DNA of 64,000 bases from Clostridium thermosuccinogenes (GCF_002896855.1 NZ_CP021850.1:2567665-2631664); one strand, 5' to 3'. Numbered from the stretch's first letter, positions 30,327 to 56,134 are shown. Translations and numbers: made by a program. The notes: a model not told the origin generated them from the sequence alone.

Positions 30327-32858
30327 TTAGGCGGTGATTATGTTGTTGGCTGCCTGCAGCCCTAGCTTCTCTATCGCCTGCTCGCGCATCTTGTATTTAA
30401 GTATTTTTCCGGCTGCGTTCATGGGGAATTCGGTCACAAATTCCACATACCTTGGAGTCTTGTGCTTTGCCATATGCGAGCGTACAAAATCCTTGAGTTC
30501 TTCTTCCGTCATCGTTTCTCCGTCTTTTAGTATTACGCATGCCATTATCTCTTCACCATACTGTTTGTCCGGAACTCCGATGACTTGGACATCCCTTACC
30601 TTGGGATGGGTATAGATGAAGTCCTCAATCTCCTTGGGATAAATATTCTCTCCTCCGCGGATGATCACGTCTTTGATGCGTCCGGTGATTTTAAAATTAC
30701 CGTTGGAATCCCTTCTGGCCAGGTCGCCGGTATGCAGCCATCCATCCTTATCGATAGCAGCTGCTGTCGCTTCCGGCATTTTATAATAGCCTTTCATGAT
30801 ATTGTAGCCCCGGGCGACAAATTCTCCATCCACACCGTCGGGCAAATCTTCGCCGGTCACAGGGTCCACGATTTTGCACTCTATTCCTGGGAGAGGACGT
30901 CCTACGGTGTTTACCCTAACCTCCAGGGGGTCATCCACACGGCTCTGGGTACAGCCGGGGGATGCCTCGGTCTGCCCGTATACAATGGTTATCTCCTTCA
31001 TGTTCATTTTATCCACAACATCCTGCATTACCTTTACAGGACAAGGGCTGCCTGCCATTATGCCCGTTCTCATATGGGAGAAATCCGTTTTCGGGAAATC
31101 CTCATGCTCCAGCAGGGCGATAAACATTGTGGGTACGCCGTGGAAGCAGGTGATTTTTTCCTTGTTAATGCACTCCAGTGCCGCCTTCGGTGAGAAATAT
31201 GGCAGCGGGGACATGGTGACTCCATGAGTCATGGCAGCTGTCATTGCCAGCACCATGCCAAAACAGTGGAACATGGGCACCTGAATCATCATGCGGTCCG
31301 CGGTGGAAAGATCCATACAGTCACCTATGCACTTTCCGTTGTTCACGACATTGTAGTGAGTGAGCATAACAGCTTTAGGAAAGCCTGTGGTTCCAGAGGT
31401 ATACTGCATGTTGCACACATCATGCTTGTTTATAGAAGCTTCCCGCAGGTAAACGGATGCCAGCGGCACCTTATCCGCCAAAGCAATGGCTTCATCCCAG
31501 GTCAGGCATCCCTTTTGCTTTGACTCTATTGTGATGATGTTGCGCAGGAAAGGAAGACGTTTTATGTAAAGCGGCTTACCAGCTTCAGCAGTTTCCAACT
31601 CAGGACACAGCTCTTTTATAATCTCAACATAATTGGAATCCTTATATCCGTCTATCATAACAAGGGTATGGGTATCCGACTGCCGCAGCAGATATTCGGC
31701 TTCATGAATCTTATAGGCTGTATTCACCGTCACAAGGACCGCCCCTATTTTTACCGTTGCCCAAAAGGTGATGAACCACTGGGGCACATTGGTGGCCCAT
31801 ATTGCGACATGGTCCCCCGGCTTGACGCCTAATGCAATCAATGAACGGGCAAAGGTATCCACATCATCCCTGAATTCGGCATACGTCCTTGTGTAATCCA
31901 TAGTGGTGTACCGGAACGCATATTGATCCGGAAACTCATCCACTACGCGGTCAAGCACCTGAGGAAAGGTCAGGTCTATCAGAGTATCCTTCTCCCAAAT
32001 GTATTTGCCTGTCTTTGTCTTATTGTCAAACAACTTGGTACTTACATTGTTCTTGCCCAAATACTTTTCCATGAAATTTGCGAAATGAGGGAATACTATG
32101 CCGGCATCTTCTATATCCGGAGCCCAACGTTTAACCCATTCCAGAGAAACATATCCGTCATAGTTGATGGAACGCAGTGCCAGCATCATATCATCTATGG
32201 GCAGGTCCCCTTCACCCATCATGCGGTATTGGGTTTTGCCATCCACAACTACCGAATCCTTGGCATGTACATGTTTTATGTAAGCTCCCAGATTCTGCAC
32301 CGTCTTAGCCGGTGATTCACCGGCATACCTGTAGGGATGGTGGATATCCCACAGGGCTGCCACCGCATCACTGGCCACGGAGTTCAACAGGTTGCACAGA
32401 CGAGCTGTATCCGAGTATACACCATTGGTTTCCACCAAAAGGGTTACTCCCTTTTCCTCGGCAACAGGAGCCAGGCGTTTCAGCATGGAGATGACTATCT
32501 CATCATCCACTTCACCTTCCGGATGAGGTTCAAGGTCTCCAAGTATGCGGACATAAGGCGTACCAAGCTTCGAGGCGAGGTTGATATACTTCACGATTTC
32601 CTGAAAGTTTTCCTCCTCTTTTTCAGGAAACTTCAGACAACAGCCGGAAGAAAGGCAGGGAATTTCCAGACGCAACCCGGCAAGCTTCTTGATAGTTTGC
32701 GGAAGCTGGCTTTCAGAAAATGGATTTGAATCGGCTGTAAAGATGTCATCTCCCAATCCACGGATTTCAATTCCTTTAAAGCCAAGATCTTTGGCCATGG
32801 AATATGTGTCTGTCCAGCTGAAACCAGGACAGCCCAAAGTTGAAAACGAAATTTTCAT
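30327..32858 (-). CDS. Fusion: sugar isomerase-like TIM barrel + acyl-CoA ligase
   Basis: An 843-residue two-domain protein. Residues 1-285 are an AP-endonuclease-2/xylose-isomerase-like TIM barrel with candidate metal ligands (LLVETNG, LWDIHHPYR, HVHAKDS, VSLEW). Residues 300-843 are an AMP-dependent acyl-CoA ligase: YTSGTTGFPKAVMLTH, YGQTEASPG, GWLHTGDLA, GRIKDVIIRGGENIYPKE and the C-terminal catalytic Lys in AGKILKYKM. The start at 32858 follows GGAGGGG at good spacing; the longer open frame upstream is the T-box terminator region. The ligase would activate a carboxylate with ATP and CoA. Substrates of both halves are unknown. Confidence 0.88.
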   Translation of the reverse strand: MKISFSTLGCPGFSWTDTYSMAKDLGFKGIEIRGLGDDIFTADSNPFSESQLPQTIKKLAGLRLEIPCLSSGCCLKFPEKEEENFQEIVKYINLASKLGTPYVRILGDLEPHPEGEVDDEIVISMLKRLAPVAEEKGVTLLVETNGVYSDTARLCNLLNSVASDAVAALWDIHHPYRYAGESPAKTVQNLGAYIKHVHAKDSVVVDGKTQYRMMGEGDLPIDDMMLALRSINYDGYVSLEWVKRWAPDIEDAGIVFPHFANFMEKYLGKNNVSTKLFDNKTKTGKYIWEKDTLIDLTFPQVLDRVVDEFPDQYAFRYTTMDYTRTYAEFRDDVDTFARSLIALGVKPGDHVAIWATNVPQWFITFWATVKIGAVLVTVNTAYKIHEAEYLLRQSDTHTLVMIDGYKDSNYVEIIKELCPELETAEAGKPLYIKRLPFLRNIITIESKQKGCLTWDEAIALADKVPLASVYLREASINKHDVCNMQYTSGTTGFPKAVMLTHYNVVNNGKCIGDCMDLSTADRMMIQVPMFHCFGMVLAMTAAMTHGVTMSPLPYFSPKAALECINKEKITCFHGVPTMFIALLEHEDFPKTDFSHMRTGIMAGSPCPVKVMQDVVDKMNMKEITIVYGQTEASPGCTQSRVDDPLEVRVNTVGRPLPGIECKIVDPVTGEDLPDGVDGEFVARGYNIMKGYYKMPEATAAAIDKDGWLHTGDLARRDSNGNFKITGRIKDVIIRGGENIYPKEIEDFIYTHPKVRDVQVIGVPDKQYGEEIMACVILKDGETMTEEELKDFVRSHMAKHKTPRYVEFVTEFPMNAAGKILKYKMREQAIEKLGLQAANNIITA

Positions 32859-32893
32859 GATTATCCCCTCCATAAACTTTCCTGAATATAACA

Positions 32894-33203
32894 AAAGGCT
32901 TTCATCTCCGACATTTCTGCCAGAGACGAAAGCCATTACTTCCGTGGTACCACTCTAATTGGTATGTACATACCCTCTTTGCGGCATCGATCTTACGATG
33001 AATGCCCTCTCGTTATAACGGCGAGAAACCCGGTCCCACCTACTTGCCACAAACAGCACGGAGCCGCCGCAGCTTTCAGCTGACTGCTCAAGGGGGAGTT
33101 CACAGCCTGCCATGTGCACTGTCTCTCAGCAACCGACAGCTCTCTGAAGCACATTAAAACAGTGTGTTTTCCCTGTCAACGCATTTACGAATATACAATA
33201 TTG
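32894..33203 (-). promoter_or_regulatory. T-box leader, specifier probably CUC (Leu)
   Basis: The minus-strand leader of the fusion gene has the T-box hallmarks: a Stem I start AGAGAGC..GGTTGCTGAGAG (about 33145-33120), a specifier region GTGAA-CTC-CCCCTTGAGC with CTC at 33098-33096, the conserved T-box AGAGTGGTACCACGG (32942-32956), and a terminator stem GGCTTTCGTCTC/GAGATGAAAGCC plus a T-rich run (about 32894-32934). Uncharged tRNA-Leu would stabilise the antiterminator and switch the gene on. Specifier assignment is by aligning to the usual spacing before GAGC and is less certain than the T-box itself. Confidence 0.85.
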
Positions 33204-49558: not shown

Positions 49559-49588
49559 TTGACAAATAATCCAAAAGCAATATATAAT
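49559..49588 (+). promoter_or_regulatory. Promoter of the ATC-hydrolase operon
   Basis: A consensus -35 TTGACA (49559-49564), 18-bp spacer and -10 TATAAT (49583-49588). The leader to the M20 gene is about 180 nt and contains the small Cys-rich ORF. The minus-strand promoter of the potassium cluster should also lie in this 420-bp interval but was not identified. Confidence 0.78.
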
Positions 49589-49650
49589 TTATAAAACAAT
49601 TCATAGTAAACCTATATATTTAATATGAATTATTGGGAGGTATTAGGTCA

Positions 49651-49752
49651 GTGGTATTTGGATACAGTCATATCAAATTGAGCTTTCTTTTATACAGAAG
49701 CCAAATAACCAAATGTGGAGATCATTGTTGCCGGCTTCCGTTGTTCATATAA
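49651..49752 (+). CDS. Candidate leader peptide with Cys cluster (33 residues)
   Basis: GGGAGG (49635-49640) precedes a GTG-started frame of 33 codons ending 25 nt before the M20 gene. Late in the peptide it has the run KCGDHCCRLP, giving Cys at codons 22, 26 and 27. All three Cys codons lie in the loop of a possible hairpin (GAAGCC 49697-49702 with GGCTTC 49733-49738). That is the layout of an amino-acid-responsive leader peptide. Given the sulfur-type operon behind it, cysteine-dependent translation control is a reasonable hypothesis. No homologue was checked. Confidence 0.45.
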   Translation: MVFGYSHIKLSFLLYRSQITKCGDHCCRLPLFI

Positions 49753-49777
49753 AAACTAAAAGAATCGAGGTATAAAA

Positions 49778-51103
49778 ATGGATGCTGTAGAACAAAAAAT
49801 CTTAAACATAATAGATTCAAATAAAGATAAAATAATTAATTTCGGCAGAGATATATACCGTAACGCGGAGCTGGGATACAAGGAATTCAGAACTTCAAAA
49901 AGGTTTGCCGACCTTTTAAAATCTCTCCACCTGGATGTGCAGGAAAAACTGGCAATCACTGGAGTCAAAGGGTACTTGAGAGGAAACCAGCATGATATCA
50001 CCCTGGCTCTGATAGGAGAACTGGATGCTTTGCGGATACCCGACCACCCCTTTGTCAATAAAGAAACCGATGCCGCCCACAGCTGCGGTCATAATGCCCA
50101 GCTTGCAGGAGTTGCCGGTGCCGCTCTGGCCTTGTCGGACCCTGAGGTTGCGTCCAATTTGGATGGAGATGTGGTTTTTTTCGCTGTTCCTGCTGAGGAA
50201 TACGGTGAGATTGAATTCAAAAATCAGCTGCGAGAAGAAGGCAAAATTGTATATGGAGGCGGCAAAAGCGAGCTTATCAGAATAGGAGCCTTTGATGATA
50301 TAGATATAAGCATTGTCCACCATTCCTCAAAGGATGGCATCATTATAGGAAACGGTACCTCCAACGGTTTTGTCTCAAAGGTAATCCGATACATCGGACG
50401 AGAAGCCCATGCCGCAGCAGAGCCTGAAAAAGGAGTAAACGCCTTGAATGCTGCCTCTTTGGCCGTGTCTGCCCTGGCCTATCAGAGAGAGACCTTCCGG
50501 GACGAGGATTCAGTCCGGGTTCACGCAATCATCACCAAGGGAGGAAACCTGGTCAATGTGATCCCGAATGAAGTAGTCATTGAAAGCCTCGTACGGGCAA
50601 AAAGCACCGAAGCCATCCTCGATGCCGACAGAAAAACCGATCGGGCCTTCATAGCAGGCTCACTGGCCATCGGAGCAGGGATAGAAATAACCACCATGCC
50701 CGGTTATCTGCCAAAGCTATCTACACCGGCACATCCGCTTATGATTGAAGCTGCCCGTGAAGCTGCCCCCGGAAGAAAAGTAAAAGAAGCCGATCCGGCT
50801 TCCCATGGAGCAGGTTCCACTGATGTGGGCGACTTGCAGCATATAATGCCCGTACTGGAGTTTAACACCGGTGGAGTATCCGGAGCTTTCCATTCCAAAG
50901 ACTTTCAGGTTATCGACGAAGAGGAAGCCTATGTCGTGACTGCAAAAATCTTTGCCCTTTCTGCATACAAACTGCTGAAAGAAGGAGCAGCTGCTTCAAA
51001 GAAAATCGTCGTGGGTTACAAACCCAAGTACACGAAGGAAGAATATCTCAACTTTATGAATAGCCTGATCCGGCACGAAAGGAAGGAAATCAAAAATGTA
51101 TGA
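49778..51103 (+). CDS. M20 family amidohydrolase
   Basis: A 441-residue metal-dependent amidohydrolase of the M20D/AbgB branch. Metal ligands are visible in HSCGHNAQLAG (about residue 104), EEYGEIE (about 145) and IVHHSS, with the lid-domain His in GREAHAAAEPEKG. Relatives cleave N-acyl, N-carbamoyl or aminobenzoyl-glutamate amides. In this operon a role on the ring-opened product of the ATC-hydrolase-like protein is plausible. Its stop overlaps the next start. Confidence 0.9.
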   Translation: MDAVEQKILNIIDSNKDKIINFGRDIYRNAELGYKEFRTSKRFADLLKSLHLDVQEKLAITGVKGYLRGNQHDITLALIGELDALRIPDHPFVNKETDAAHSCGHNAQLAGVAGAALALSDPEVASNLDGDVVFFAVPAEEYGEIEFKNQLREEGKIVYGGGKSELIRIGAFDDIDISIVHHSSKDGIIIGNGTSNGFVSKVIRYIGREAHAAAEPEKGVNALNAASLAVSALAYQRETFRDEDSVRVHAIITKGGNLVNVIPNEVVIESLVRAKSTEAILDADRKTDRAFIAGSLAIGAGIEITTMPGYLPKLSTPAHPLMIEAAREAAPGRKVKEADPASHGAGSTDVGDLQHIMPVLEFNTGGVSGAFHSKDFQVIDEEEAYVVTAKIFALSAYKLLKEGAAASKKIVVGYKPKYTKEEYLNFMNSLIRHERKEIKNV

Positions 51104-51629
51104 AAAGAAAAGTATCGAGTATCAAGATGCGGTAAAGGAAGTTAGAAAAGCGTGCCGTCAGTTTGCAATGCTGTATTTCCACTTTGCAAAGGTTTTGGTT
51201 GAAGAACTGGGAGAAGATAAGGCAAAGCCCCTTATACAAAAAGCCATATTTGAGCTGGCTGTCGACCGTTCGGATCAACTGAGGGAAAAAGCCATAAAAC
51301 AAGGACTTCCCTGCACCATGGAAACCTTCATGAAAATATCTGATCTGCCGCTGATCGGCTGGGTAAAGGAGCTTGGACGCAACCACTGTCCTTATGCGGA
51401 AACCTGGTTCCAATACTTCGATGAATATCCATGGTTTAAGGAAATAGCCCCTCTTTACTGTGATGTGATAGATACAACAAATGCAGAGAATTTCACCCAG
51501 GGCTTGTCCCATAAAATCACAAAAAATGTCCTGACTGGAGGTGAGTCCTGTGAAAGAGAATACTTTGCAAGTGAACAAGTCTCAAAAGGTATTTACAGCT
51601 ACGGCGAAAAAATCAAAAAGGAAGGATAA
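51096..51629 (+). CDS. L-2-amino-thiazoline-4-carboxylate hydrolase family protein
   Basis: A 177-residue protein matching the ATC_hydrolase family (PF14196 type), with a helical N-terminus, the LPLIGWVKELG and NHCPYAETWFQYFDEYPWFKEIAPLYCDVID segment, and a conserved Cys in each of two clusters. Characterised members open the thiazoline ring of ATC to N-carbamoyl-cysteine, although many family members have unknown substrates. It overlaps the M20 gene by 8 nt and the permease by 80 nt, so the three are tightly coupled. Confidence 0.82.
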   Translation: MYEKKSIEYQDAVKEVRKACRQFAMLYFHFAKVLVEELGEDKAKPLIQKAIFELAVDRSDQLREKAIKQGLPCTMETFMKISDLPLIGWVKELGRNHCPYAETWFQYFDEYPWFKEIAPLYCDVIDTTNAENFTQGLSHKITKNVLTGGESCEREYFASEQVSKGIYSYGEKIKKEG

Positions 51630-52392
51630 GCACAAACAGCCCCTGTGGGTTACAATATCCCGATTGGGAATAATCGCTGCAATACTTGTCGGTATAGAGC
51701 TTGCAGTATCGCAAGGATATGTGAATAAGATTTTTCTGGCTTCCCCCTCCCAAATAGCCGACGAGTTTACATATATGCTTCGGCAAAACGAGCTGCTGCC
51801 GCAAATCATGCTTACACTGCAGGAGGCTCTCCTGGGATATGCAATTTCCGCTGTCGTAGGCATCGGAATTGGAGTCCTATTTGTGACCTTTCCCAAGCTT
51901 GAAGCTCTGCTTACCCCCTTTTTTTCAGCCATAATGGCCGTACCCAAGACTGCAGTCATGCCCCTTTTGATAGTTTGGTTCGGCATTGGCTTCAAAAGCA
52001 AGGTGATAATGGTGTTCCTGTTCTGCATGTTTACCGTGCTGTTTAACACCGTATCCGGGACAAAGCAGACCAAGGTCGAGCACTTGAAGGTGGCCCATGT
52101 TTTTAAAGCAACACGAGCCCAGATAGTATTCAAAGTTCTGATACCCTCTGCACTACCCGGCATATTTACGGGTCTTAGGGTCACAGCGGCAACAGCCATC
52201 ACCGGTGTAATCTTTGCTGAAATGACTGCCTCAAAAGGCGGAGCAGGATATCTGCTGAGTGAAGCCCAGGCAGTACTGAATACTCCAAAGCTGTACCTGG
52301 TAGTCATCATAGTAACTCTGCTCTCGGTTCTGTTTGTGAGTATTGTAAACTTAGCGGAAAGAATTGTTTTCCGTCATCAGCGTACCATATAA
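51550..52392 (+). CDS. ABC permease, taurine/sulfonate (SsuC/TauC) type
   Basis: A 280-residue permease with about six helices after a basic cytoplasmic N-terminus (KKSKRKDKHK). The EAA loop is present (EHLKVAHVFKATRAQIVFKVLIPSALPGI). The start is GTG 51550, 8 nt after GGAGG, inside the end of the preceding gene in another frame. The family imports sulfonates, nitrate, bicarbonate or pyrimidine precursors; here an organosulfur or thiazoline ligand is inferred from neighbours. Confidence 0.88.
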   Translation: MKENTLQVNKSQKVFTATAKKSKRKDKHKQPLWVTISRLGIIAAILVGIELAVSQGYVNKIFLASPSQIADEFTYMLRQNELLPQIMLTLQEALLGYAISAVVGIGIGVLFVTFPKLEALLTPFFSAIMAVPKTAVMPLLIVWFGIGFKSKVIMVFLFCMFTVLFNTVSGTKQTKVEHLKVAHVFKATRAQIVFKVLIPSALPGIFTGLRVTAATAITGVIFAEMTASKGGAGYLLSEAQAVLNTPKLYLVVIIVTLLSVLFVSIVNLAERIVFRHQRTI

Positions 52393-52484
52393 ATCCCTTA
52401 TAAATATATCATTATAAATCTTTTATAAAATTCCAATATCAATCTTTATACAATCAAATCATCATAATGAATGAGGTGTGAAAT

Positions 52485-53603
52485 ATGATAGGTAATAAAA
52501 AAGCTTTTGTCAGAATTTTATCTGCAGCAATCGCAGTCATGATAACTCTCATCACAACGGCGTGCTCATCGGCCACCGGCAGTCAGAATCAGACAGCCCA
52601 AAATACCAGCAACGCTTCAACGCAGCAAAATACCGATGCTGACTTTACTCCCCTTGCCTCTCCCGATGATGCTCCATGGAAATCACGGGAAAATAAGCAG
52701 GTAACCGTCCGTGCAGGGTTTGCAAAAGGCATGACAGGCATAGCCAACCAGTTTGCCATACAAAATGGCTGGTATAAGGAAGCTGGCATTGAACTGAGCC
52801 TGATAGACATACCAAATCCTGTGTCGGCCTTTGGCGCAGGCGAAGTCGACATAGCCGACGGAGACCCCGGCACATATATTCCCGCCATCGTAAACAATGT
52901 CCCCATGAAAATTGTGAGCAACATGTGGCGCAATAAAGGGGCATACTGGATCATAGCAAGACCTGAAATCAAGTCATGGGCTGATTTAAAAGGCAAAAAA
53001 ATAGGATCCGCACAGCCTACGGGCGGTATGAAGCTCACCCTCATGGAAGTGCTGACCCAGAACGGAATCGACCCGGAAAAGGATGTTGAGCTTATCGCCA
53101 ACGGATCTTATCAAACTGCCTATGCCACCCTTACCTCCGGAGAAGTGGATGCCACTATCATTCACCAGCCTTATGCCACCCTTGCAGAAAAAGAAGGCAC
53201 TGGGCACGTGCTGGCAAAGACATGGGAATTCCTTCCCGGATATCATACCGGAGTACTGGTGGCTTCCCAGAAAATGATAGATGAGCAACCGGATGTGGTT
53301 GAGCGGGTGCTGGAGGTCTATTTCTACGCCAATAATTACGCTAAAAACCATTTGGATGAGTTTATACCCTGGGCAGCCAAATATTTGAATGTGGATGAGG
53401 ATACGGCCCGCAAAGCCATTGAAGCGGAAATAGTGCTTTGGGAAAACGATCCTATAGTCGATACAAACCGTCTGCAAGTAACAGAAGATCTGCTTACCAA
53501 ATATGGAATGCAGAGGGAATCCTACAAGGTTGACGGCGTCGTCGACAACCGGTTTGCCGAAAAGGTTGCAAAAGCCTTAAAACTCGGAAAATATGCTTCA
53601 TAA
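52485..53603 (+). CDS. ABC substrate-binding lipoprotein, SsuA/TauA/NMT1 type
   Basis: A 372-residue binding protein with a lipoprotein signal (lipobox TTACS near residue 26) and a Gln/Asn/Thr-rich linker. The NMT1-like fold shows TVRAGFAKGMTGIANQFAIQ, EVDIADGDPGTYIPAIVN and a LKGKKIGSAQPTGG segment. It captures a small organic ligand outside the cell. It lies 92 nt after the permease gene, with GAGGTG before the ATG. Confidence 0.9.
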   Translation: MIGNKKAFVRILSAAIAVMITLITTACSSATGSQNQTAQNTSNASTQQNTDADFTPLASPDDAPWKSRENKQVTVRAGFAKGMTGIANQFAIQNGWYKEAGIELSLIDIPNPVSAFGAGEVDIADGDPGTYIPAIVNNVPMKIVSNMWRNKGAYWIIARPEIKSWADLKGKKIGSAQPTGGMKLTLMEVLTQNGIDPEKDVELIANGSYQTAYATLTSGEVDATIIHQPYATLAEKEGTGHVLAKTWEFLPGYHTGVLVASQKMIDEQPDVVERVLEVYFYANNYAKNHLDEFIPWAAKYLNVDEDTARKAIEAEIVLWENDPIVDTNRLQVTEDLLTKYGMQRESYKVDGVVDNRFAEKVAKALKLGKYAS

Positions 53604-53628
53604 AAATTAAGCAAAAGGAGAAGGAATC

Positions 53629-54411
53629 ATGCCTGCTATTGAGTTTCGCAATATATCAAAATATTATGAAAATTGGGAAGGCGAAGAAACAACAGCGCTT
53701 AAAGATATAAACCTGACGGTCAAGGATGGCGAATTTGTCTGCATCCTTGGGCCCAGCGGATGCGGAAAAAGTACGCTTCTGGAAATAGCAGCAGGACTTT
53801 TGCCCCATTCGGAAGGTGAGATTTTATTGGATGGCAAGCTTCAGTCCGGCACCAGCCGCGATATTGGAGTGGTTTTTCAGGACTCATCCCTCTTTCCCTG
53901 GCGAAGTGTAAGAAAAAATATAGAGTTTGGTCTGGAAGTGGCAGGTGTAAGTAAAGAGGAACGGCTTCAGAAAGTGCAAAAGGCAATTGAAATGGTTGGG
54001 TTAAAAGGCTTTGAAAATAAATACCCCCACCAGCTTTCCGGAGGTATGCGCCAGCGAGCCGGTATTGCCCGCACTTTGGTGAATGATCCTGCCTGCATAC
54101 TTATGGATGAGCCCTTCAGCGCAGTAGATCACTTGACTCGCCTTGCTCTCCAGGATGAGATTATCAGGATTTGGCAGCAAGAGAAAAAAACCATACTTTT
54201 TGTCACCCATGATGTCTCCGAAGCGGTATATCTCTCAACTCGCATAGTGCTGCTCACGCCACGTCCCGGGCGCATACAGCGGATTTTTGAAGTTCCCTGT
54301 GGCTGGCCGCGGAGCCGTAATAACCCGGCACTGCTGGATATAGTGGAGAAAATCTACATGTGCCTCAACAATCCTGATGAAAACGAAGATATGATCGAAT
54401 ATAACATATGA
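53629..54411 (+). CDS. ABC ATPase, SsuB/TauB type
   Basis: A 260-residue ATPase: Walker A GPSGCGKSTLLE (about residue 43), Q-loop VFQDSSLFPWRSV, signature LSGGMRQRAGIARTL, Walker B ILMDEPFSAVD and switch His in FVTHD. It powers the importer with the permease and binding protein just upstream. AAAGGAG precedes the ATG. Confidence 0.93.
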   Translation: MPAIEFRNISKYYENWEGEETTALKDINLTVKDGEFVCILGPSGCGKSTLLEIAAGLLPHSEGEILLDGKLQSGTSRDIGVVFQDSSLFPWRSVRKNIEFGLEVAGVSKEERLQKVQKAIEMVGLKGFENKYPHQLSGGMRQRAGIARTLVNDPACILMDEPFSAVDHLTRLALQDEIIRIWQQEKKTILFVTHDVSEAVYLSTRIVLLTPRPGRIQRIFEVPCGWPRSRNNPALLDIVEKIYMCLNNPDENEDMIEYNI

Positions 54412-54428
54412 GTGAAGGAGGATGTAAA

Positions 54429-55265
54429 ATGTCGGATAATGTATTAAAACAATTCAATTTAACCGATGAGGAATATTTGAAATTGGACGAGGTGGAATTC
54501 AGGGCCAGATTCCGTGAAAGAGTGCATCACACCCTGGAGATTCAGACCTATGCCGCCGCAAACGGCGATGAGGTTCTGAAAGAAAATCAGAGCGCGACAG
54601 CCAAGAAGTTTATCAGGCTTTGGGAGGAACGGAACCTGCCCAAGGATCTTCCCGAATATGTATACGCAAAGAAGCTGATAGAATTTTCCGAAACACTGCT
54701 AAGGGGCGAAAAACTAGATTTAAGCGAATATGAACCTTATAAGCTGTCGGATGAGGAGAAGGATGCGTTTTTTAAGGTTATCAAGGAAAGAAGGTCGGTG
54801 AGGCATTTCACTGATGAAAGAGTTCCTGACGAGCTGATTGACAAAATACTGGAAAGTGGATTGTGGGCAGCCCATTCGTGCAATTTGCAGTCAATAAAAT
54901 ATCTGGTGGTTATGGAGGAAACCACTCCTGGATTATTTAAAGGAAGCGATGTTCCTGGAGGCCCGGTTCACCTGGTAGTGCTTCAGGATGAACGAGTATA
55001 CAGGGCCAATCCTTTGAACCCGGTAAGAAACCGGCTGATAGATGCAGGTGCAGCAGCCCAGAATATGGTTCTTGCAGCCCATGCCCTGGGATTAGGCAGT
55101 GTATGGTTGACCTTCAACGATGCGATGATAGAGAGGATCAGCAAATATTTCAACCTGCCGGAATACCTGAAATTAGTGACATATGTGGATGTCGGCTATC
55201 CCAATCAAACCCCGTATGCGCCTCAGAGAAAAACATTAAAGGAAGCGATAGAGGCAAGGGTTTAG
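54429..55265 (+). CDS. Nitroreductase-family flavoprotein
   Basis: A 278-residue FMN enzyme. The core begins near residue 115 (FFKVIKERRSVRHFTDERVPDEL) and includes the FMN/NADPH region (GAAAQNMVLAAHALGLGSVWLT). An extra helical N-terminal domain of about 100 residues precedes it. Family members reduce or oxidise heterocycles, including thiazoline oxidation in some pathways, so a redox step on the imported compound is possible but unproven. The start at 54429 follows GAAGGAGG. Confidence 0.87.
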   Translation: MSDNVLKQFNLTDEEYLKLDEVEFRARFRERVHHTLEIQTYAAANGDEVLKENQSATAKKFIRLWEERNLPKDLPEYVYAKKLIEFSETLLRGEKLDLSEYEPYKLSDEEKDAFFKVIKERRSVRHFTDERVPDELIDKILESGLWAAHSCNLQSIKYLVVMEETTPGLFKGSDVPGGPVHLVVLQDERVYRANPLNPVRNRLIDAGAAAQNMVLAAHALGLGSVWLTFNDAMIERISKYFNLPEYLKLVTYVDVGYPNQTPYAPQRKTLKEAIEARV

Positions 55266-55290
55266 CCTGTCCAATAGAAGGAGTGGTATA

Positions 55291-55986
55291 GTGAAAATCC
55301 TAATAACAGGAGGAAGTCAAGGCATTGGGCTGGCAATTGCAAAAGAGCTCCATACTGCCGGACATGAGCTTTTCCTGGTAGCAAGAAATCCGGAAAGACT
55401 AGACAGTACTATCAAAAGCTTTTCCGCCAAAGTCCAAGGCTTTGCCTGTGACATTGGAAAAGAAGGGCAAATTGATGCATTGATAAATGCCACCCGGCGG
55501 GAGAATTTCTATCCGGATGTGATAGTTCTTAACGCCGCAGCTTTCGGAGGCCCCGAAAGATCGGTGCTAAAACCTTCTCCGGATGAGCTGAGGCAACTGC
55601 TGGAAGTCAACGTCCTGTCAAATTATCAATTGGTGCAAGGTTTTATTGAAACTTTGAAAAAAAGCCAGTATCCCCGCATTATAATAATCGGGTCAACCGC
55701 CGGGATAAGAGTTGATGATGGCTCCCTTTACGGAGTCACCAAATGGGCATTAAGGTCCTATTCCTATTTTTTGAGGAATGAACTGAAACAGCTTGGAGTC
55801 GGAGTCACTTTAATAAATCCGGGGGGAACCTTTACCCAAAAACGCGTTCCCAATGAAAAAATCCCTGCCGACAGGCTTCTTGAAGCCTCAGACGTAGGAA
55901 AGCTTGTGGCAGCCATCCTTACCCTCTCCCCCCAGGCAGTTGTTGAAGAATTGAATATCCGCCCTCTTTTAGGCGATACTTATTGA
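55291..55986 (+). CDS. Short-chain dehydrogenase/reductase
   Basis: A 231-residue SDR. NAD(P) motif TGGSQGIGLAIAKEL at the N-terminus, NAA motif (VLNAAAFGG), catalytic Ser in IIIGSTAG and YxxxK as YGVTKWAL. The start is GTG 55291 after GGAG. It is the last gene of the operon; a small AGCACC/GGTGCT hairpin follows its stop and a strong terminator lies about 110 nt later. Confidence 0.9.
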   Translation: MKILITGGSQGIGLAIAKELHTAGHELFLVARNPERLDSTIKSFSAKVQGFACDIGKEGQIDALINATRRENFYPDVIVLNAAAFGGPERSVLKPSPDELRQLLEVNVLSNYQLVQGFIETLKKSQYPRIIIIGSTAGIRVDDGSLYGVTKWALRSYSYFLRNELKQLGVGVTLINPGGTFTQKRVPNEKIPADRLLEASDVGKLVAAILTLSPQAVVEELNIRPLLGDTY

Positions 55987-56095
55987 GCACCCTTAACGGT
56001 GCTAACTGATCACGCATGTAATATTTACCGATCATACTGGGTAATGCCTACTGATCATGCTTGAATATTACTAATTATATTTATTTATGGAAGAA

Positions 56096-56134
56096 AATAA
56101 CCGCTGTTCTCTCATCAGAGAAAAGCGGTTATTT
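56096..56134 (+). terminator. Terminator of the ATC-hydrolase operon
   Basis: The stem AAATAACCGCT.TTCTCT/AGAGAA.AGCGGTTATTT carries A- and T-rich flanks. Confidence 0.88.

Follow-up and report, generated by a model that had tools for sequence, protein, structure and literature searches.

A conserved clostridial operon with an ATC_hydrolase-family protein and a predicted CymR-type operator, probably devoted to organosulfur scavenging

Our analysis of the Clostridium thermosuccinogenes genome identified a seven-gene operon of new composition, in which an ATC_hydrolase-family (PF14196) protein and an M20D amidohydrolase are combined with an ABC importer, a nitroreductase-family flavoenzyme, and a short-chain dehydrogenase/reductase (SDR). 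We consider it probable that this is a cysteine-repressed organosulfur scavenging operon. The operon itself, its conservation, its sulfur-gene neighborhood, its operator, and the conserved residues of its proteins all emerge from computational analysis of a 64,000-nucleotide stretch (NZ_CP021850.1:2567665-2631664, hereafter the window, to whose first letter positions refer) and of related genomes.

RESULTS

Seven genes in one operon

ORF reading of the 64-kb window placed seven genes in a single operon on the plus strand, running from 49778 to 55986, and Pfam profiles back the family assignment of each of them. Together with the promoter and the same gene order in relatives, this bears out the view of an earlier note on this DNA that the seven genes form one operon. 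The note also had them run from one promoter to one terminator. A sigma-70 type promoter (TTGACA-18-TATAAT; 49559-49588, plus strand) matches the consensus at 12 of 12 positions and is the sole such match in the 11-kb region scanned. At the other end stands a hairpin (56095-56134, plus strand; 11+6-bp stem, -22 kcal/mol, z = -5.65); given the poor U-run after its stem, the hairpin is a likely rather than certain terminator, so that only the promoter half of this claim stands in full. The junctions are mostly overlapping or short, as the note had it, with the exception of a 92-nt gap 5' of the binding-protein gene and a 189-nt leader. Folding of the 5' leader (49589-49727) was no stronger than that of shuffled sequences (z = 0.65), and a search for an Rfam element in it found none.

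Elsewhere in the window, a T-box leader (109.5 bits; 32919-33188, minus strand) lies 5' of a single ORF (30327-32936, minus strand) encoding a sugar-isomerase-like TIM barrel fused to an acyl-CoA ligase, an odd T-box target. Also present in the genome is an IS30-like transposase gene, in two or more copies (L087 1-435 and L089 1847-3016).

The M20 and ATC-like proteins

The opening gene (49778-51103, plus strand) encodes an M20D amidohydrolase (PF01546) that we predict to be an N-acyl-cysteine deacylase. The protein scores 179.7 bits against TIGR01891, above the cut-off of 153.75, and gives no match to the carbamoylase model TIGR01879, which we take to be the marker of AtcC, the carbamoylase-type amidohydrolase of the Pseudomonas ATC pathway. 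Residues C103, H105, E140, E141, H181, H182, and H372 are invariant across 15 relatives, a set that likely includes the metal ligands and the catalytic Glu. Among the solved relatives is YxeP (1ysj), now ScmP, a specific N-acetylcysteine deacetylase (PMC12757645). By sequence, then, the M20 protein is assigned to the N-acyl-amino-acid/N-acetylcysteine deacylase group (B. subtilis ScmP/YxeP) and not to the carbamoylase group. The operon is therefore unlikely to reproduce the Pseudomonas ATC pathway exactly, which speaks against the note's assumption that the amidohydrolase acts as in that pathway. M20 relatives on plasmids (41-46%) adjoin DUF3100 membrane proteins, neighbors that yield no substrate clue.

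The second gene (51096-51629, plus strand) encodes the ATC-like protein, which scores 39 bits against PF14196 (cut-off 28.1) and is a predicted ring-opening or C-S cleaving enzyme. An alignment of 20 PF14196 members, distant ones and the window protein included and the Pseudomonas L-ATC hydrolase itself not among them, revealed that G39, C98, C122, D126, and C152 are kept in all 20. The note had named a lack of family catalytic residues as grounds for doubt; the window protein retains the residues that are invariant across the sampled members.

The structure model of the ATC-like protein (mean pLDDT 92.9) appears to resemble V4R/Bet3 ligand-binding domains, including those of the phenol-sensing MopR, PoxR, and DmpR: the first 31 matches listed are all Bet3, MopR, PoxR, DmpR, or TRAPPC3, with modest Z scores (5.7-7.9) and weak Foldseek E-values (0.28 at best). 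Given this predicted fold, the Pfam name "ATC hydrolase" is no proof of hydrolase activity. A three-Cys cluster is common to V4R and PF14196, and one member of the latter family is reported to cleave the ring of ATC (PMC5847659). A sequence search against solved structures returned nothing significant, and a search of plasmids found no match to the protein.

Distant PF14196 genes have no M20 gene within their 3.4-kb loci, and the M20 pairing is thus a trait of the present subfamily. ATC-like proteins without M20 occur in C. difficile, L029, and L032, and family sampling around G292 yielded weak relatives only. In C. difficile and one sampled genome, an orphan ATC-like gene stands by a GntR-type regulator in the same gene order (L033 9971-10519, L034, L035, and L009 9420-9968; 46-49% identical). 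In a further locus (L042), the PF14196 domain is fused behind a cupin-like domain.

Importer and redox genes

The ABC permease, of SsuC/TauC type (PF00528 and sequence), ends at 52392 on the plus strand; its start is ambiguous between GTG 51541 and GTG 51550, the latter of which lies behind GGAGG. It is followed by a lipoprotein solute-binding protein of NMT1/SsuA/ThiY fold (PF09084; 52485-53603, plus strand) with an invariant lipobox Cys27, and by an ABC ATPase whose profile matches are of TauB/SsuB type (53629-54411, plus strand). The description of this importer as SsuABC/TauABC-type holds for the permease, the ATPase, and the architecture, and is less secure for the binding protein, which scores 115 bits against the SsuA aliphatic sulfonate-binding family TIGR01728, below the cut-off of 163.5. 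The folds nearest to the binding-protein model are those of thiamin-, FAMP-, sulfonate-, and taurine-binding proteins, all equally near, and as modeled the protein does not appear to decide among these substrate classes.

The operon is completed by a nitroreductase-family flavoenzyme (PF00881 and alignment; 54429-55265, plus strand) and an SDR (PF00106; 55291-55986, plus strand). The former has an N-terminal extension of ~110 aa (54429-54760), conserved in relatives, that carries FRARxRERxHHTLEIQ and matches no Pfam family; a search for nitroreductase relatives in plasmids found none.

Conservation of the cassette and its sulfur-gene neighbors

Relatives of the ATC-like gene were sought in one genome per species, and 24 were found. 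The order M20, ATC-like, permease, binding protein, and ATPase is present in 13 other clostridial genomes, with a nitroreductase in 12 of the 13 and an SDR, an optional member, in 5, counts that are not independent because some relatives are mutually close (L018/L019 and L015/L017). Such conservation of gene order excludes a chance grouping, the outcome that the note had said a search of other Clostridia might bring to light. Loci of Spirochaetaceae/Treponema combine M20 and ATC-like genes, in two cases with a nitroreductase, with a non-homologous Opp-type importer, and a sampled clostridial-class genome (L010) has a 66%-identical M20 and a 28%-identical ATC-like protein with an Opp importer. 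The enzymes therefore travel together, with the importer swapped. All cassettes examined lack an acetyltransferase and a monooxygenase. No description of the gene set as a whole was found in the literature covered.

Ahead of M20, the spirochete loci encode a fumarate-reductase-like flavoprotein together with a 2Fe-2S protein (L020 2-2036, L028 1199-3323, and L036 6899-9029), a pair that is possibly an alternative redox module.

In 8 of the 13 relatives, the cassette adjoins cysteine/methionine genes. These neighbors are CysK, O-acetylhomoserine sulfhydrylase, Rrf2, cystathionine gamma-lyase/synthase, and PatB in L015, L017, L018, and L019, and cystathionine gamma-lyase/synthase and PatB in L022, L024, L026, and L030. 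Moreover, the cassette-side PatB is the strongest of its genome in all seven genomes searched from among those eight. The sulfur genes lie downstream of the cassette or, in L030, upstream, and such differing arrangements argue against a single inherited accident. C-S bond breakdown is not the only role open to PatB and the cystathionine enzymes, which would suit ordinary methionine synthesis equally well.

A predicted Rrf2/CymR-type operator

A predicted Rrf2/CymR-type operator, TCATAGTAAACCTATATA, is located at 49601-49618 (plus strand), 13 nt past the -10 element. At the start site, the promoters of L015-L019 share the motif ACCTACTAATCC(T/G)A(T/C)A(G/T)G, which also occurs 5' of cysK, metN, and amino-acid permease genes in one relative (G781) and 5' of the Rrf2-metY (cymR-metY) operon of C. 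thermosuccinogenes itself. The latter operon (G000:C1:3709524), read from sequence as an Rrf2-like gene followed by metY, thus has an operator of its own, to which the window site is identical at 15 of 18 positions. We ran operator matrices on the window and on individual loci. A first matrix, built from the relatives' and own cymR-metY sites with the window site left out, gave 49601-49618 as the top match on both strands of the 64-kb window (17.1 bits), and a second one, built solely from sulfur-gene sites outside the cassettes, again ranked it best there. With the second matrix, the cassette promoter ranked first or second in its own locus in 12 of 14 cases, the weak L021 and L014 among them and L023 and L031 being outright failures; overall, this matrix found no convincing operator in the L021, L023, and L031 cassettes and a doubtful one in L014.

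A mismatch-pattern search covered the own genome with a pattern that already included the window site. Its only one-mismatch site lies 19 nt 5' of cysK, and a two-mismatch site lies 5' of larE-metN. Weak hits numbered 13 versus 16 for a reversed-pattern control, i.e., not above control, so that the case for the operator rests on the positions of the sites. We dismissed as chance the weak matches that fell inside coding regions, rpsP among them.

CymR represses cysteine metabolism in B. subtilis and is likely present in Clostridium (PMC3828012). The Rrf2 protein of one relative matches TIGR00738, with a CymR-model score under the equivalog cut-off. On this sequence evidence, it is well supported that the operon promoter carries an Rrf2/CymR-type operator, and we predict that the operon belongs to a CymR/Rrf2 regulon. 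Together with the neighboring cysteine and methionine genes, the operator also backs the role in sulfur or thiol amino acid supply that the note had proposed.

DISCUSSION

We infer the order of steps, the product, and the substrate of the pathway as follows. A shortage of cysteine would release a CymR-like Rrf2 repressor from the operator at 49601 and so permit transcription of the seven genes. The ABC importer would then take up a small organic sulfur compound, whose redox state the nitroreductase (and the SDR) may adjust, and the ATC-like protein would yield an N-acyl-cysteine by opening the ring or a C-S bond, after which M20D would remove the N-acyl group. The freed cysteine could pass to neighboring cysteine/methionine enzymes, as in the relatives.

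The B. subtilis salvage clusters need an acetyltransferase. Since the present operon has a deacylase and no acetyltransferase, the substrate itself is expected to supply the N-acyl group, just as a thiazoline would when opened, and for this reason we tentatively favor a thiazoline/thiazole-type compound as the single most likely substrate class. A fuller version, in which sulfur acquisition from S,N-heterocycles proceeds anaerobically, with the nitroreductase reducing an aromatic thiazole or a related ring to a thiazoline, the V4R-fold ATC-like protein opening it to N-acyl-cysteine, and M20D freeing cysteine, is doubtful. Relatives of the nitroreductase are known for thiazoline oxidation, and the proposed thiazole reduction is the reverse reaction. 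The expected product, cysteine, and the PF14196 protein beside an M20-type amidohydrolase recall the route by which Pseudomonas converts ATC to cysteine with an L-ATC hydrolase and a carbamoyl-cysteine amidohydrolase. However, the M20 protein here is of the TIGR01891 type and not a carbamoylase, and the operon, found in anaerobic hosts, adds an importer, a nitroreductase, an SDR, and a CymR-type operator.

It is also conceivable, at a rather low probability, that the operon does anaerobically what scm/ytm salvage does in B. subtilis, importing N-acetylated S-substituted cysteines (mercapturate-like or alkyl-damaged); the redox enzymes and the ATC-like protein would remove the S-group, and M20D would deacetylate N-acetylcysteine. 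An M20D deacylase, a transporter, flavin enzymes, and cysteine-linked control are common to the operon and the scm (yxe), ytm, and yha clusters (ScmP/YxeP, YtnL, and YhaA). More specifically, the M20D group and its similarity to YxeP/ScmP (PMC12757645) agree with such a route, as do the PatB C-S lyase adjoining many cassettes and the CymR-type control, CymR being what governs B. subtilis cysteine metabolism (PMC3828012). Against it, the operon, like every cassette, is devoid of the acetyltransferase and monooxygenase, its importer is of another family, and it has a nitroreductase and an ATC-like protein, the latter without a counterpart in scm/ytm. Alternatively, the ATC-like protein might be no enzyme at all and serve as a V4R-like ligand-binding or sensing subunit, leaving the chemistry to M20, the nitroreductase, and the SDR. 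We rate this as unlikely. Its predicted fold appears to match the sensor domains of MopR, PoxR, and DmpR as well as Bet3 (TRAPP), V4R and PF14196 have the three-Cys cluster in common (PMC5847659), and the orphan copies of C. difficile adjoin a GntR regulator. Yet the Foldseek E-values are weak (0.28 at best) and the Z scores all lie below 8, the invariant Asp and three Cys would equally serve a catalytic site, ATC ring cleavage has been ascribed to one family member (PMC5847659), and, unlike the V4R sensors, the ATC-like protein stands alone in a catabolic operon without a DNA-binding or output domain.

Two further readings concern the importer. The system might take up taurine-type sulfonates or N-acyl-sulfonates, which would suit a permease, ATPase, and binding protein that share the architecture and folds of SsuABC/TauABC, but the binding protein falls under the SsuA-family cut-off, the operon lacks any desulfonating enzyme, sulfonate monooxygenase included, and the spirochetes pair the same enzymes with a peptide-type importer, all of which makes this reading very improbable. 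We give still less credence to a salvage of thiamin breakdown products as in ThiXYZ-YlmB, with formylaminopyrimidine uptake and deformylation by M20. YlmB is an M20 enzyme, and the nearest folds of the binding-protein model include thiamin- and FAMP-binding proteins besides SsuA/TauA; however, a search for a TPP riboswitch found none over threshold anywhere in the 64-kb window, the operon carries no thiamin signals, and its neighbors and operator indicate cysteine/methionine rather than thiamin.

The known B. subtilis cysteine-salvage pathways use oxygen-requiring monooxygenases, and cysteine salvage in strict anaerobes is therefore poorly mapped. The cassette described here is a candidate oxygen-free route, common to Lachnospiraceae and other Clostridia, many of evident gut or rumen origin, and partly also to spirochetes. 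In addition, PF14196, a family usually named after one Pseudomonas enzyme, gains a defined context in which its activity can be assayed.
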